Shown one piece after another: positions 57,514 to 64,000 of a stretch of 64,000 nt of DNA. The stretch's first letter is position 1. Each line of letters begins with the position of its first letter. The notes under the pieces were generated by a model. That model saw only the letters and a program-made list of their open reading frames with translations, searched no databases and was not told the origin of the DNA. Location: NCBI RefSeq assembly GCF_014174355.1, contig NZ_JABEQF010000002.1, forward strand, positions 248,001 through 312,000, written 5' to 3'. This DNA is from Gluconacetobacter azotocaptans (lineage in GTDB: Bacteria; Pseudomonadota; Alphaproteobacteria; Acetobacterales; Acetobacteraceae). Made by a program: the position numbers and the translations under genes.

Positions 57514-57588
57514 TGGATCGGAAAAACCGGGTTTACCTGCCGCCGTGCCTCCGTTCATCCTGCCTGCGTGCAGGATAAAGAGCAGGGC

Positions 57589-58320
57589 ATGACCGTACAC
57601 GACGAAAGCCGGATCCGTGTCGACCTGGCGGCAGCCTTCCGCATCGTGGCGCGGCTGGGCCTGCATGAAGCCGTCGCCAATCATTTCAGCGCGGCGGTGT
57701 CCCCGGATGGGCGGTGGTTCCTGCTGAACCCGAAATGGCGGCATTTCTCGCGCATCCGGGCCAGCGACCTGGTGCTACTGGATGCCGAGGACGAGGATGC
57801 GCGCCATCGCGCCGACATCGACCCGACGGCCTGGGCCATCCATGGGCAGATCCATCGCCTGCTGCCGCAGGTGCGCGTGGCGATGCACCTGCACCCCATC
57901 CACGCCACCACCATCGCCTGCCTGGCGGACCCGACCATCAGGCCGATCGAGCAGAACACCGCGCGCTATTTCAACCGGGTCGCCACGGACACCCTGTACG
58001 GCGGCATGGCCGACACCGGGGCCGAGGGCGCGCGCCTGGCCGGCCTGCTGGGCAACCGGTCGCGGCTGATGATGGGCAATCATGGCGTGCTGGTCACCGC
58101 CCCCACGGTGGGCGAGGCCTTCGACGATATCTATACCCTGGAGCGCGCCTGCCAGATCCTGGTCTCGGCCTATGCCACGGGCCAGCCGCTGAAGGTCCTG
58201 AACGATGACGTGGCCGAAAAGACCGCGCGTGACTGGGAAGGGATCCGCGATTTCTCGATCGCCCATTTCGAGGAAATGAAGCGCATTCTCGACCGCGAGG
58301 ATCCGTCTTACGCCGATTGA
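57589..58320 (+). CDS. Class II aldolase/adducin family protein, copy 3
   Basis: 243 residues from ATG 57589 (AGAGCAGGG upstream; a GTG at 57568 would add 7 residues). Motifs 'HGQIHRLLPQVRVAMHLHPIHA' (HLH) and 'MMGNHGVLVTAPTVGEAFDD' carry the zinc histidines. It follows the glycosyltransferase by 75 bp and begins a new operon that runs through NtaA-type monooxygenase, Rieske oxygenase and transport genes. As at 3657 and 16186, an aldolase is coupled with a flavin monooxygenase. Substrate unknown. Confidence 0.85.
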   Translation: MTVHDESRIRVDLAAAFRIVARLGLHEAVANHFSAAVSPDGRWFLLNPKWRHFSRIRASDLVLLDAEDEDARHRADIDPTAWAIHGQIHRLLPQVRVAMHLHPIHATTIACLADPTIRPIEQNTARYFNRVATDTLYGGMADTGAEGARLAGLLGNRSRLMMGNHGVLVTAPTVGEAFDDIYTLERACQILVSAYATGQPLKVLNDDVAEKTARDWEGIRDFSIAHFEEMKRILDREDPSYAD

Positions 58321-58344: not shown

Positions 58345-59682
58345 ATGATTACGCGACGACATATCGTTCTGGGCGGTTTGTTCGAAGCCAACGGCTATCA
58401 CTCGGCGGCGTGGCTGATGCCCGGGGCGCAGGATGGCGCCGCGACCGACATCGATTATTTCCGCCGCATCGTCCAGACGGCGGAACGGGGCAAGCTGGAT
58501 TTCTTCTTCCTGGCCGATACGCCGGCGGCGCGGACCGAAAACCTCGACGCCTGGACGCGGGCACCGCTGTATATGAACATGATGGAGCCGATCACCCTGC
58601 TGTCGGCCATCGCCGGTTCGACGTCGCATATCGGCCTTGGCGCCACGGCGTCCACCAGTTTCTACGAACCCTATAACGTCGCCCGCCTGTTCGCGTCGCT
58701 GGACCATATCAGCCACGGCCGCGCCGCGTGGAACGTCGTGACCACCGCCAACGACTATGCCGCGCGCAATTTCGGCCTAGATGCGTTGCCGCCGCATCAC
58801 CGGCGTTATGACCGGGCCGGGGAATTCCTCGACGTCGTGCAGGCCTTGTGGGACACCTGGGAGGACGACGCCTTCATCCACGACAAGGCGAACGTGCGGA
58901 TGTTCGACCCGGAGAAATTCCATGTCCTGGACCATCAGGGCGAATTCTTCCGGGTGCAGGGCGGGCTGAACATGGCGCGCTCGCCGCAGGGGCAGCCGGT
59001 CATCTTCCAGGCGGGGGCGTCGGAAACCGGCAAGGAATTCGCGGCGCGGACGGCCGAAGTGGTGTTCGGCACCGGCGCCTCGATGTCCGAGGCCACGGCG
59101 TTCTATCAGGATGTGAAGGGACGCATGGCGCGCTACGGCCGCCATCCCGACGCGCTGAAGATACTGTCCGGCGTGTCCATCGTCCTGGGCGAGAGCGAGG
59201 CGCACGCGCGCGAGAAATGGGCCGCCTGGCAGGAGATGATCCATATCGACATCGGGCTGATGTACCTGAAGACCGACCTGGAAACCGACCTGTCCGACCT
59301 GCCGCTGGACGAGCCGGTGCCCGAACACCGGATTCCGGAAAAATCGAATTTCCATCAGGTCTATTTCCAGGAAATCTCCGGTCTGATCCGCCAGGGGCTG
59401 ACCTTGCGTCAGGTGTGCAAGCGCTACAATCGCAGCAAGGCGATCTTCTACGGCACTGCCCGGCAGATCGCCGACCAGATGGAGGAATGGGTCGCGGCGG
59501 GTGCTGGCGACGGCTTCATGATGGCGCTGCCGGTGCTGCCGGAAAGCCTGACCGACATCACGGAAAAGGTGGTGCCGGAACTGCAGCGGCGTGGTCTGTT
59601 CCGCACCGAATATCAGGGCACGACCCTGCGCGAGAATCTGGGGCTGGCCCGTCCGCGCAATCGCTATGCGCCCAGGGGATGA
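58345..59682 (+). CDS. NtaA/DmoA-type FMNH2-dependent monooxygenase
   Basis: 445 residues. 'LGGLFEANGYHSAAWLMPG' , 'FFFLADTPAARTENLDAWTR', '[26 protein letters not shown]', '[41 protein letters not shown]' and 'TLRENLGLARPRNRYAPRG' define the NtaA/SnaA/DmoA branch, which oxidises nitrilotriacetate, dimethylsulfide and other small compounds with FMNH2. AAGGAG 6 nt before ATG 58345. Overlaps the Rieske gene by ATGA, so translation is coupled. It is the full-length relative of the frameshifted copy at 13823-15165. Confidence 0.9.
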   Translation: MITRRHIVLGGLFEANGYHSAAWLMPGAQDGAATDIDYFRRIVQTAERGKLDFFFLADTPAARTENLDAWTRAPLYMNMMEPITLLSAIAGSTSHIGLGATASTSFYEPYNVARLFASLDHISHGRAAWNVVTTANDYAARNFGLDALPPHHRRYDRAGEFLDVVQALWDTWEDDAFIHDKANVRMFDPEKFHVLDHQGEFFRVQGGLNMARSPQGQPVIFQAGASETGKEFAARTAEVVFGTGASMSEATAFYQDVKGRMARYGRHPDALKILSGVSIVLGESEAHAREKWAAWQEMIHIDIGLMYLKTDLETDLSDLPLDEPVPEHRIPEKSNFHQVYFQEISGLIRQGLTLRQVCKRYNRSKAIFYGTARQIADQMEEWVAAGAGDGFMMALPVLPESLTDITEKVVPELQRRGLFRTEYQGTTLRENLGLARPRNRYAPRG

Positions 59683-60845
59683 CCATGGTTTCCAAGGACC
59701 CGGCCGGGACGGCCCTGCTGCAGACGGCGTCGCGTCCGTTCGACGATGCGATTGCCATGCCGCCCGAGGTTTACACCAGCGAGGCGTTCCTGGCGCGCGA
59801 GGTCGAGACGATCTTCGCCCGGGAATGGATCTGCGTCGGGCGCGCGTCGGCGTTGGGGGCGGTCGGTGACTACCTGACCTGCGAGGTCGCGGGGCAGCCG
59901 ATCATCGTCCTGCGCGACAGGGACGGCGGGGTGCGGGCAATGTCAAATGTCTGTCTGCACCGCATGTCCACCTTGCTGGAAGGCACGGGGAACGTCCGGG
60001 CGATCGTCTGCCCCTATCACGCCTGGTCGTACAATCTGGACGGCACGATGCGGGGCGCGCCGTTGATGAACGGGCGCCCGGGCTTCTGCAAGGACGAGTA
60101 CCGGTTGCCCGACATCCGGTGCGAGGAGTGGCTGGGCTGGCTCTACGTGACGCTGGACGCCAATGCCGCGCCGGTGGCGGACCGCCTGCGCCCGCTGGAG
60201 CAGATGGTCGCGCCCTACGGCATGGAGCGGTATGTCGAATGCTTTCGGGAAACGCATGTCTGGGACACCAACTGGAAAATCCTGGCCGAGAATTTCATGG
60301 AAAGCTACCATCTGCCGGTCTGCCACGCCCGTACCGTCGGCCCGCATTCGAAGCTGGAGGAAATGGAGTGCCCGCCCGGTCTCGCGGCATTCAACTACCA
60401 CTGGATCACCAAGGAGGCGTCCCTGCCGATCGGCAACGCCCATCCCACCAATACGCGGCTGACCGGGCACTGGCGCCGGACCACCGGCCTGATCACCATC
60501 TATCCGTCTCACCTGATCACGCTGACCCCCGGTTATTTCTGGTACCTGTCCCTCCATCCCCAGGGCGTAGGCAGGGTGCGGATGATCTTCGGCGGCGGCC
60601 TGTCCCCCGAATTCATCGACGACCCCAAGGGCCAGGAGTATGTCGCAGCGCTGAAGGCCCTGCTGGACGCGGTCAATATCGAGGACCGCCGCTGCACCGA
60701 AAAAGTGTTCCACGGCATGGGCGCCGCCCGGGCGGCGCCGGGCCGGCTGTCCCACCTGGAACGGCCGTTGTATGATTTCACCCGGTATCTTGCCGGGCGC
60801 ACGGCGGGTTTCGACCCTGCGTCCGCACCGGCCGGCGGGGCATGA
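59679..60845 (+). CDS. Rieske non-haem iron oxygenase, alpha-subunit type
   Basis: 388 residues. The Rieske [2Fe-2S] motif is complete: 'NVCLHRMSTLL' (CxH) near residue 91 and 'VCPYHAWSY' (CxxH) near 110. The catalytic domain has 'NWKILAENFMESYHLPVCHARTVG' with the iron histidines and bridging acidic residue, and an acidic residue in 'NIEDRRCTEKV'. It hydroxylates or demethylates a substrate with electrons from a separate reductase, not seen here. It overlaps its neighbours by 4 nt on both sides, so it is in one operon with the monooxygenase and permease. Confidence 0.88.
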   Translation: MTMVSKDPAGTALLQTASRPFDDAIAMPPEVYTSEAFLAREVETIFAREWICVGRASALGAVGDYLTCEVAGQPIIVLRDRDGGVRAMSNVCLHRMSTLLEGTGNVRAIVCPYHAWSYNLDGTMRGAPLMNGRPGFCKDEYRLPDIRCEEWLGWLYVTLDANAAPVADRLRPLEQMVAPYGMERYVECFRETHVWDTNWKILAENFMESYHLPVCHARTVGPHSKLEEMECPPGLAAFNYHWITKEASLPIGNAHPTNTRLTGHWRRTTGLITIYPSHLITLTPGYFWYLSLHPQGVGRVRMIFGGGLSPEFIDDPKGQEYVAALKALLDAVNIEDRRCTEKVFHGMGAARAAPGRLSHLERPLYDFTRYLAGRTAGFDPASAPAGGA

Positions 60846-63094
60846 CAGCGCCGCCCCGCCCATCTGTCGGCCCCGTCATCGAGGCCGAGACGATCTTTCC
60901 CATTCCCCATGACCGGCGTCACGGTCGGACCCGCGACCTGTTCACCGTCTGGTGCGGGTCGAACATGATGATGCTGACGATCGTCACCGGGGCGCTGTCC
61001 ACCGGCCTGTTCGGCCTGTCGATCGGGCCGGCGCTGCTGGCCATCCTGCTGGGCAGCCTGGTCGGCGGGGTCGTGATGGCGCTGCATGCCGCGCAGGGGC
61101 CCATGCTGGGCGTGCCGCAGATGGTCCAGACGCGGGGCCAGTTCGGATCGGTGGGGGCCGTCCCGATCGTGATCCTGGCCACGCTGATGTATCTGGGCTT
61201 CACGGCGTCGAACCTCGTCCTGGGGGGCGAGACGCTGCGCGCGGCGCTGCCGGGCCTGGGGCGCGTTCCGGCGGTCCTGGCCATCGGCGTGTGCAGCATG
61301 GCGCCGACCATTTTCGGCTATCGGGGCATCCATGCCGGCGCGCGCGCGCTGACCTGGCTGGGCGGGCTGGCCATCCTGTACGCGCTGGCGCGCGGCCTGC
61401 CGCTGCTGGCGCATCTGGCGGCGCTGCCCCGGCACGGGTCGTTCCTGGGGTTTCTGGGGGCGTTGTCGACAGCGGCGCTGTGGCAGATCGCCTATGCGCC
61501 GAACGTGTCGGATTCCTCGCGCTACCTGCCGGCGACCACCGATGGCGGCCGGCGGGCCTTTGCCGCATGCTACGCCGGCAGCGTCACCGGGTCGGTCCTG
61601 CCCATGACGGTCGGCGCGCTGCTGGGGCCATTCGTGCGGCACGACGACGTGACCGGGTCGCTGGCTGGCCTGGTATCGCCGCATGCGGTGCCGGTCCTGG
61701 CTGTGCTGGCGCTCGGCATTGCGATCTCGACGGCCATGAATATCTATTGCGCCGCCCTGTCCAGCATCACCATCGTCCAGACCTTCGCCACCGGCTGGCG
61801 GCCCGGCCGCGCCGTCCGGCTGGGGCTGACGGCGGGCATCCTGCTGCTGTCGCTGGGTGTCGCGCTGCTGGCGGAGCGGCATTTCTTCCAGTCCTACACC
61901 ACCTTTCTGGAAATGCTGATGGCGTTCCTGGTGCCATGGACGGCGGTCAATCTGGTGGATTACTACCTGGTCCGGCGTGGCGCGTATGACGTGGCCGCGT
62001 TCTTCCGCGCCGATGGCGGCATCTACGGACGCTTCAACACCGCCGCGTTGCTGGCCTACGGGTTCGGGCTGGCGGTGCAGTTCCCGTTCCTGACGAATGG
62101 ATATTACACCGGGCCGGCGGTGCCACTGCTGCACGGGGTGGATATTTCCTGGATCGTCGGGCTGGCGCTGACGACGCCGGCCTATCTGTGGCTGTTGCGC
62201 GCCTTCGCGCCCGTCCAAAAGGGGGGCACGCGCGTCTGGACGGTTGTCATCCTGATGGGGCTGCTGCTGCCCGTCACAGGGGCGCGGGCGGGGTGCCTGG
62301 ACGATGTCAGGCGCGCGGGGGTGCTGACATCGGGCACCGGCCTGCTGGGTGACCGGATCGCGCTGTGGCAGGATCGGAACGGCGAATATCACGGAGTGAC
62401 CGCCGACCTGTTCTTTGAAATCGCGCGCCGGATGGGCGTCCCGCAGGCCCGCTTCATCCCGACCGAATGGCCGACCCTGATCCCCGGCCTGAAGGCCCGC
62501 CGGTGGGACATCGTGCTGTCGGACATTGTGATCACGCAGGAACGTATCATCGACGGAAACGTGCTGTTTTCCACACCCTATTTCCGGCTGTACGACCGTG
62601 TGATCGTGCTGGGCGATTCGCCGATCCGGACTACGGACGACCTGCGCGGCAAGACCCTGGGCTCGGTCGTCGGATCGACCGATTCCATGGTCGCGCACGG
62701 CCTTGTGGCGCAGGGGTACGGGGCGTCGGTCTCGGATTACAATAATTGGGCCGATCCGTTCCAGGCCTTGCGCAACCGCCAGATCGACGCCGTCATCCTC
62801 GACCAGGATTCGCTGCTGTCCCACAAGGACGAGTTCAAGAGCCTGCGGGTCATCGGCGATCCGCTGTTCTACCAGGCCAAGCCCGCCTGGCAGGAGGCGG
62901 AGCGCGCCTCGCCCTACTATCTGGGCGACGAGGGCATTGTGGTGCGGCCCGCTTGCGCCGACCTGCGGGCGGCGTTGAACAATGCGCTGGAGGCGATGCG
63001 GGCGGATGGAACGCTGAAGGCGATTCTGAAGAAGAACGGCGTGTGGGAACCGGTACAGGATCATCTGATCAAGCCGCAACCGACGGGGCGATAA
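60842..63094 (+). CDS. NCS1-type permease continuous with a family 3 solute-binding protein
   Basis: One open frame of 750 residues. Residues 1-455 are an NCS1 nucleobase/allantoin-type permease with twelve helices ('WCGSNMMMLTIVTGALSTGLFGLS', 'NVSDSSRYLPATT', 'NLVDYYLVRRGAYDVAAFFR'). A hydrophobic bridge (about 465-480) leads into an SBP_bac_3 amino-acid-type binding protein (485-750: 'DRIALWQDRNGEYHGVTADLFFEIARRMG', 'WDIVLSDIVITQER', 'GSVVGSTDSMVAHGL'). The bridge would place the binding domain in the periplasm, so the fusion is topologically possible. But the join has a AAAAGGGGGG run (62217-62226): dropping one G ends the permease at TGA 62253 and lets a GTG at 62188 start the binding protein with a normal signal peptide. 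Both readings are open. Confidence 0.8.
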   Translation: MTAPPRPSVGPVIEAETIFPIPHDRRHGRTRDLFTVWCGSNMMMLTIVTGALSTGLFGLSIGPALLAILLGSLVGGVVMALHAAQGPMLGVPQMVQTRGQFGSVGAVPIVILATLMYLGFTASNLVLGGETLRAALPGLGRVPAVLAIGVCSMAPTIFGYRGIHAGARALTWLGGLAILYALARGLPLLAHLAALPRHGSFLGFLGALSTAALWQIAYAPNVSDSSRYLPATTDGGRRAFAACYAGSVTGSVLPMTVGALLGPFVRHDDVTGSLAGLVSPHAVPVLAVLALGIAISTAMNIYCAALSSITIVQTFATGWRPGRAVRLGLTAGILLLSLGVALLAERHFFQSYTTFLEMLMAFLVPWTAVNLVDYYLVRRGAYDVAAFFRADGGIYGRFNTAALLAYGFGLAVQFPFLTNGYYTGPAVPLLHGVDISWIVGLALTTPAYLWLLRAFAPVQKGGTRVWTVVILMGLLLPVTGARAGCLDDVRRAGVLTSGTGLLGDRIALWQDRNGEYHGVTADLFFEIARRMGVPQARFIPTEWPTLIPGLKARRWDIVLSDIVITQERIIDGNVLFSTPYFRLYDRVIVLGDSPIRTTDDLRGKTLGSVVGSTDSMVAHGLVAQGYGASVSDYNNWADPFQALRNRQIDAVILDQDSLLSHKDEFKSLRVIGDPLFYQAKPAWQEAERASPYYLGDEGIVVRPACADLRAALNNALEAMRADGTLKAILKKNGVWEPVQDHLIKPQPTGR

Positions 63095-63098
63095 GGGC

Positions 63099-63806
63099 GT
63101 GCACAGATTCTTCTTCAGGGAAGTCCCGGAATATTTTCTCTTCCTGCTGCAAGGGGCATGGATCACCCTTGTGCTGTCGCTGGTCAGCATGGCATGCGGG
63201 CTGGTCCTGGGCCTGGCTGTCGCCCTGGGGCGCCTGTCCCCCTATCGGGCTGTGCGCTGGCCGCTGGATGCCTATGTCGAATTGTGGCGCGACACGCCGC
63301 TGATCGTGCAATTGCTGTTCATCTACTTCACCTTGCCCGAATTCGGCCTGACGCTGCCGGCGTTCTGGGCGGGGGTGGCGGGGTTGTCGCTCAATCTCGC
63401 GGCCTATCTGTCCGAAGTGTTTCGCGCGGCCATTGTCGCGATCGACCCGGGCCAGCGGCAGGCGGCCCTGTCGCTGGGCATGTCGCGCGCCGCGATCTAT
63501 CGCCGGGTCGTCCTGCCACAGATGTTCCGGGCGACGCTGCCGACGGTGGGCGGATATTTCATCGCGCTGCTGAAGGATTGCTCGCTGGTCTCGTTCATTT
63601 CGGTCAATGAGCTGCTGCGGCACGCCAATATCGTCATCGCGGATACCTTCGACAGCATGAACACCTACATCATGGTGGGCTTCATCTATTTCGTCATGAG
63701 CTTCGGCAGCGCCCGGCTGATCGGACTGCTGGAACGCAGGCTGACGCCGCGTCACCAGCGGCGCGGCACCGCGATGCTGTCCGATCCGAAAGGCGCCGCG
63801 GCATGA
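63099..63806 (+). CDS. Polar amino acid-type ABC transporter permease
   Basis: 235 residues from GTG 63099. HisMQ-type permease: 'LQGAWITLVLSLVSMACGLVLGLAVALGR', 'ELWRDTPLIVQLLFIYFTLPEFG' and the EAA-type loop 'AALSLGMSRAAIYRRVVLPQMFRATLPTVGGYFIALLKD'. It pairs with the binding domain upstream and the ATPase that starts 4 nt inside its 3' end. Inner membrane. Substrate class by family is amino acids or related ions, but the operon context suggests a modified N-compound. Confidence 0.88.
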   Translation: MHRFFFREVPEYFLFLLQGAWITLVLSLVSMACGLVLGLAVALGRLSPYRAVRWPLDAYVELWRDTPLIVQLLFIYFTLPEFGLTLPAFWAGVAGLSLNLAAYLSEVFRAAIVAIDPGQRQAALSLGMSRAAIYRRVVLPQMFRATLPTVGGYFIALLKDCSLVSFISVNELLRHANIVIADTFDSMNTYIMVGFIYFVMSFGSARLIGLLERRLTPRHQRRGTAMLSDPKGAAA

Positions 63807-64000
63807 GCGGGGCCGCGCCCCAACCCGTGCTGGTCGCGCGGGGGCTGCGCAAGAGCTACGGCGCGATCGAGGTGCTGGCCGGTGTGGATCTGGCGGTGGC
63901 CCCGGGCGAGGTCGCCTGCCTGATCGGCCCCAGCGGCGGTGGCAAATCGACGCTGCTGCGGTGCCTGAACTTCCTGGAACGGCCCAGTGGCGGCTCGATT
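63803..64000 (+). CDS. ABC transporter ATPase, amino acid type, cut by window edge
   Basis: The first 66 residues are visible: 'LVARGLRKSYGAIEVLAGVDLAVAPGEVACLIGPSGGGKSTLLRCLNFLERPSGGS' with Walker A GPSGGGKST and the 'LRCLNFLE' pattern typical of GlnQ/HisP-type ATPases. Coupled to the permease by ATGA. The rest is beyond the window. Confidence 0.9.
   Translation, partial: MSGAAPQPVLVARGLRKSYGAIEVLAGVDLAVAPGEVACLIGPSGGGKSTLLRCLNFLERPSGGSI

Follow-up and report, generated by a model that had tools for sequence, protein, structure and literature searches.

An NCS1 permease and a family 3 substrate-binding protein joined in frame in two Gluconacetobacter species: a candidate polyprotein

In a 64,000-nucleotide stretch of the Gluconacetobacter azotocaptans genome (NCBI RefSeq assembly GCF_014174355.1, contig NZ_JABEQF010000002.1, positions 248,001 to 312,000 of the forward strand; hereafter the window, with coordinates counted from its first nucleotide), a single open reading frame (ORF) joins a nucleobase:cation symporter-1 (NCS1) permease to a substrate-binding protein of family 3, the polar amino acid type used by ATP-binding cassette (ABC) importers. 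We asked whether this frame is a true fusion or two ordinary genes that appear joined through one extra base and, if the fusion is true, whether its halves work as one protein. Another species, G. tumulisoli, has this fusion in frame as well, which places it beyond chance. We consider it probable that the fusion is ancestral and is made as a one-chain polyprotein, from which the binding protein would be cut free to serve an ABC importer.

The fused frame and its domains

The ORF (60842 to 63094, + strand, as are all window features described here) runs as one open frame of 750 codons from ATG to TAA, with a calculated mass of 80.2 kDa; in the window strain, this frame is as read from the assembly. 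A preliminary description of the locus had reported a continuous frame joining an NCS1 permease to an SBP_bac_3 domain, and both the ORF and Pfam searches bear this out, each domain being complete. The permease part spans residues 1 to 455 (60842 to 62206). Transp_cyt_pur (PF02133, NCS1) matches residues 20 to 440 (E 1.4e-45; 156.3 bits against a cut-off of 23.5) over profile positions 1 to 440 of 440, as expected of a full-length NCS1 protein, and alignments with stand-alone relatives likewise show it to be full length. The NCBIfam model TIGR00800 scored 95.6 bits on this part, below its cut-off of 353.1. Searched as a single sequence against solved structures, the NCS1 part gave no match at E 0.01, while a profile of 15 of its relatives matched Mhp1 (2jln; E 2.3e-7), the only solved relative found for it.

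A linker of residues 456 to 464 (62207 to 62233), presumably cytoplasmic, leads into a 13th hydrophobic segment, residues 465 to 483 (62234 to 62290), which ends in A-R-A before Gly484 and appears to be the former signal peptide of the binding protein. The mature family 3 binding protein would comprise residues 484 to 750 (62291 to 63091; 29.6 kDa). Its SBP_bac_3 domain (PF00497) covers residues 510 to 731 (E 5.4e-23; 81.7 bits against a cut-off of 26.4), and sequence and fold matches in the PDB are to amino acid-binding proteins, domains of GlnPQ among them. Arg568 and Asp654 are unchanged in all 16 aligned proteins, at positions that we take to hold the carboxylate and amino groups, respectively, of an amino acid ligand. 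A matching ABC permease and ATPase come next, as the preliminary description also stated: the cognate permease lies at 63099 to 63806 (PF00528, HEQRo_perm_3TM; family 3 type), and the ATPase (PF00005) starts at 63803 and runs off the window at 64000, its full length in the genome being 258 residues (L084:304-1080). A permease and an ATPase of the same class thus adjoin the binding-protein part, as in family 3 ABC importers.

A second fusion, a remnant, and unfused relatives

G. tumulisoli LMG 27802 carries the same fusion end to end, in frame and without a stop (761 amino acids), with 93% identity over query positions 3 to 750 in a first search of 60 genomes that included the window's own. The junction reads ...LLRVFAPSGADGWDGRRVWTVV... 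in G. tumulisoli and ...LLRAFAPVQKGGTRVWTVV... in the window, and the linker differs in length by 9 nucleotides, which keeps the frame. Between the two species, nonsynonymous and synonymous divergence (dN and dS) were 0.022 and 0.238 in the NCS1 part and 0.041 and 0.311 in the binding-protein part. Since substitutions are mostly synonymous in both halves, both appear to be kept as proteins and to be under purifying selection.

A third species, G. johannae LMG 21312, has the binding-protein gene directly after the monooxygenase gene, with the Rieske and NCS1 genes absent from that position. Elsewhere in its genome, the best Rieske match is 31% identical, and another NCS1 gene, 56% identical, lies on a different contig, as one does in the window genome. 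The 59 bases that follow the monooxygenase stop hold a match to the end of the NCS1 coding sequence, identical at 23 of 26 bases to G. tumulisoli and at 22 of 26 to the window. This match stands directly before the bridge and in the same frame, no shuffled sequence out of 1000 reached its score in either comparison, and blastn against G. tumulisoli returned it at E 1.4e-5. It is therefore very probable, judging from this short remnant, that the end of the permease once stood in frame before the binding protein in an ancestor of G. johannae, and a deletion appears to have made the binding protein stand-alone again. In present-day G. johannae, the remnant (L037:5993-6051) supplies the first part of the signal peptide of the binding protein.

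A tree of the binding-protein, ABC permease, and ATPase genes of the three species with three outgroups paired the window species with G. johannae (support 0.902) and left G. tumulisoli outside. Similarly, third-position identity was highest for the pair of window species and G. johannae in all five genes common to the three. Because the in-frame remnant and this sister pairing fit a fusion that predates the three-way split and was later deleted in G. johannae, and a base miscount in the window does not, we conclude that the fusion is probably ancestral to G. azotocaptans, G. johannae, and G. tumulisoli.

A search of 397 Acetobacteraceae genomes with the binding protein gave 16 that match at E 1e-25 or better: the two fused species, G. 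johannae, and 13 others, in which the binding protein is unfused. A homologue of the ABC permease adjoins the binding protein at all 16 loci, and the ATPase was found at 15. Among the 13 other loci, the gene before the binding protein is a PhyH-family oxygenase homologue in 11, and a separate NCS1 gene follows the ATPase in 10. The remaining three have no adjoining NCS1: in one, the contig carries an NCS1 gene at a distance of about 21 kb, another has none within the 12 kb read, and the last sits on a 5-kb contig with no NCS1 beside the binding protein and with the ATPase also not found. The gene order in 10 Acetobacteraceae genomes is aminotransferase, PhyH-family oxygenase, binding protein, ABC permease, ATPase, NCS1, and TonB-dependent receptor, an outer-membrane receptor together with two inner-membrane transporters (families assigned by Pfam on one locus, L050; order in the others, L066-L070 and L072-L075, by homology). 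This cluster resembles the fusion locus in holding a homologous binding protein (53 to 61% identity, ten loci) and importer with an NCS1 gene nearby; it differs in that its genes are all separate and its NCS1 is downstream and outside the group of the fused NCS1. Nine of the 10 cluster NCS1 proteins form one clade (100/100), the tenth standing alone on a long branch, whereas the fused NCS1 groups with one from Bombella and those of two further genomes (93/88, a modest grouping with long branches). Direct descent of the fused NCS1 from the cluster gene 3′ of the ABC genes was considered and rejected, as trees place the two apart. Given this separation, linkage of an NCS1 gene to this ABC importer may have arisen twice, and it is chiefly such repeated linkage, as read from the trees, that speaks for the two transporters being functionally tied.

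We then looked more widely with the whole fusion as query. No fusion beyond those of the window species and G. tumulisoli was found in 397 family, 385 class, and 398 phylum genomes (overlapping sets; cut-offs of E 1e-60, 1e-45, and 1e-40, respectively; at most two candidates scored per genome), in searches that would miss pairs from distant NCS1 or binding-protein branches. A genome-contig scan of 11 loci added none to these two species. Among the best 30 of 1076 PLSDB records matched by protein, there was no true fusion (5 of the 1076 cover at least 80% of the query), and among the best 20 of 58 matched by DNA, none covers 80%. Five Rhizobium plasmid records with 85% query cover were set aside; in the one opened, the alignment overruns the permease end into an isochorismatase gene. 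Matches that continue past a TGA to query positions 462 to 496 in several genomes look like the same artefact, and in three such genomes checked, the binding protein was not found at E 1e-20. Furthermore, an NCS1-binding protein fusion was not found in the titles and abstract openings of the open-licence PMC papers that the searches matched. The pairing of NCS1 with SBP_bac_3 is a new domain combination, not a new kind of system.

The bridge and how the chain may be processed

In both fusions, the bridge consists of a linker with basic residues, a hydrophobic core of 15 to 17 residues, A-R-A or A-G-A, and then Gly-Cys-Leu-Asp-Asp. The core is 17 and 15 residues long in the two fusions, compared with 11 to 19 in stand-alone signal peptides (7 of 14 compared); it is no longer than a stand-alone leader and has not lengthened into an extended anchor. 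Across the 16 aligned binding proteins, position -3 is always Ala, Ser, or Val and position -1 always Ala or Ser, which agrees with the signal peptidase I -3/-1 rule (PMC9360617). The fusions thus retain a signal peptide with its -3/-1 site, now internal to a longer frame, and by its sequence the bridge is best read as the binding protein's old signal peptide with a signal peptidase I-like site kept.

As known from Mhp1, an NCS1 transporter has twelve helices, and both its termini lie inside. We suggest that loss of the stop codon from an NCS1 permease gene, together with loss of the start from the binding-protein gene that followed it, turned the old signal peptide into a 13th hydrophobic segment. 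We infer that the frame is translated as one chain, whose twelve NCS1 helices would end in the cytoplasm, with the linker and old signal peptide crossing the membrane outward. Signal peptidase I would then cut at A-R-A/G, yielding in equal amounts an NCS1 permease of about 51 kDa with a stub and a free periplasmic binding protein of about 30 kDa, and the latter would feed the ABC permease and ATPase encoded next.

Several observations weigh against this proposal. The bridge is the fastest-changing part of the fusion, with a dN of 0.30 and a dS of 0.76 over residues 452 to 483 (0.18 and 0.53 over residues 464 to 483), and the cutting of a signal peptide behind twelve helices is not guaranteed. 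In an AlphaFold2 model (mean predicted local distance difference test score, 83.6; predicted template modelling score, 0.63), the bridge shows a short low-confidence helix at 465 to 475 and block means of only 47 and 43 for residues 461 to 480. This poor confidence is partly due to the alignment having misplaced the C-terminal helix of stand-alone NCS1 proteins, and the model therefore says little on the junction. Compared with the window by blastn, the remnant in G. johannae gives a weaker match (E 0.053) than with G. tumulisoli, and the outgroups of the three-species tree are distant, so that its root is only moderately sure. Finally, an in-frame TTG at codon 452 of the window is suitably placed to start the signal peptide.

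That TTG would serve an account in which one DNA frame gives two primary products, ribosomes restarting inside the permease gene so that the fusion is nominal, and the binding protein of G. johannae must indeed use a start near its remnant. However, the counterpart codon in G. tumulisoli is CTG, and, before its bridge, the closest ATG, GTG, or TTG is GTG 447, where the last permease helix region begins; from the last NCS1 helix to the cleavage site, the two fusions have no common in-frame ATG, GTG, or TTG. Nor does AGGA, GGAG, or GAGG precede any of the in-frame junction starts examined, although this is a weak point, as none precedes the fusion's own start either. We regard an internal start as rather unlikely. 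Far less credible is the recent or artefactual insertion that the preliminary description held to be a serious competitor, in which a misassembly, or a mutation that the window strain acquired recently, would make two normal genes look fused. What it saw is there: the A4G6 run AAAAGGGGGG lies at 62217 to 62226, TGA 62253-62255 is the first stop after it in the +1 frame, and GTG 62188, in a different frame from the fusion, opens a basic leader that reads VAVARLRARPKGG as far as the run. Yet the count of Gs in relatives tells against it, since the run is absent from both G. tumulisoli and G. johannae, and the former is still fused in frame and the latter holds an in-frame remnant. A sequencing slip as the source of the fusion is therefore rejected as very unlikely, and the fusion is the expected ancestral state, as two independent errors would otherwise be needed. 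The fusion reading is thus supported, and an extra G as its cause is highly improbable. As a separate observation on the run, the window codons CAA AAG GGG GGC (62213 to 62227) hold a candidate slippery heptamer for -1 frameshifting, A AAG GGG, with the next stop in the shifted frame at TGA 62350; the heptamer is absent in G. tumulisoli. Ribosomal slippage on the run to give the permease alone is a speculation, and G. tumulisoli has no such run.

The preliminary description had also envisaged the permease and a tethered receptor as one working unit. The 80-kDa chain would then stay whole, holding the binding protein at NCS1 and raising the local substrate concentration, and the receptor would either feed NCS1 directly, as proposed for TAXI-GltS, or be shared with the adjoining ABC importer. 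The probable age of the fusion, before the split of the three species, is in its favour, as are the published precedent of TAXI-GltS fusions (PMC12344293) and the NCS1 genes after the ATPase at 10 of 13 other loci, a pairing that may be twofold with the fused NCS1 lying apart from those. Against it, the bridge retains a signal-peptidase motif and a short hydrophobic core, and a matching ABC permease and ATPase follow. G. johannae, without a permease here, has kept the binding protein and ABC genes; no NCS1 precedes the binding protein there or in the 13 other matching genomes, and three of those 13 loci have no adjoining NCS1 at all (one with an NCS1 about 21 kb off and one on a 5-kb contig). 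We consider a lasting tether unlikely. Its more elaborate form, a whole chain whose receptor hands substrate to both NCS1 and the ABC importer and so serves an ion-driven and an ATP-driven route, seems improbable. Cleavage of an ancestral polyprotein is the reading we prefer.

Operon setting and comparison with known transporters

The ATG of the fusion overlaps the stop of a gene for a Rieske ring-hydroxylating oxygenase subunit (59679 to 60845) as ATGA, and the gene set thus looks like one operon, probably including this gene, an NtaA/DmoA-family FMN-dependent monooxygenase (58345 to 59682), and a class II aldolase/adducin family protein (57568 to 58320). Beyond the window, Pfam matches on L084:1221-7822 place a 2-hydroxyacid dehydrogenase gene on the opposite strand after the ATPase, followed by a TonB-dependent receptor, a 2Fe-2S domain gene that could encode the reductase of the Rieske oxygenase, and an MFS transporter. 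One Acetobacteraceae locus (L076) has the binding protein, ABC permease, and ATPase beside a monooxygenase homologue (57%) without NCS1; its Rieske match is weak (28%), the genome having a closer homologue (71%) on another contig (L085), and the locus serves as an outgroup for the window's operon. The nearest NCBIfam model for the ABC permease is of the cystine type, at a score under the model cut-off. Considered alongside the NtaA/DmoA-type monooxygenase, this match points tentatively to an amino acid-like substrate with sulfur or nitrogen in it, which is a guess.

Covalent joining of a family 3 binding domain to a membrane protein is familiar from GlnPQ-type importers, in which binding domains are fused to their own ABC permease, but the partner here is an unrelated secondary transporter. 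In mechanism, the proposed scheme is the same as that of FbcH, the cytochrome b/c1 polyprotein of Bradyrhizobium, in which a polytopic and a periplasmic protein are made as one chain and split at an internal signal sequence; the proteins differ, and the cut in the Gluconacetobacter fusion is only predicted. Because the ABC permease and ATPase directly follow, we do not assign the fusion to the binding protein-dependent secondary transporters (the TRAP, TTT, and TAXI-GltS kind). NCS1 permeases are of the rocking-bundle type, and a TAXI-GltS-like use of a binding protein by such a permease is a minority reading, since the ABC genes adjoin and the cleavage site is kept. To our knowledge, a binding protein-assisted rocking-bundle transporter would be the first. 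Of the published systems found, TAXI-GltS comes closest; there, a secondary transporter is coupled to, or fused with, a binding protein (PMC12344293). The likeness is that a binding protein is genetically joined to a usually solitary secondary transporter, and such fusions are rare. There the binding protein is N-terminal and of the TAXI type and the GltS transporter is of the elevator type by modelling, whereas in the window it is C-terminal, of family 3 (ABC type), joined to an NCS1 permease, and accompanied by an ABC permease and ATPase of its own kind.

The TAXI-GltS authors suggest that a feature of the elevator mechanism may be required for use of a binding protein, a suggestion that further classes would test (PMC12344293); if the chain described here stayed tethered and in use by NCS1, it would break that suggestion. 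As it stands, the locus is a natural and evolutionarily kept joining of parts of two transport systems with different energy sources, present in two species and seemingly undone in a third. Whether a signal peptide that follows twelve membrane helices can still be cleaved is a question that the locus puts to a natural test. Were it uncut, the fusion would test binding-protein use by a transporter outside the elevator class; were it cut, it would offer a tidy case of polyprotein-style co-production in bacteria.

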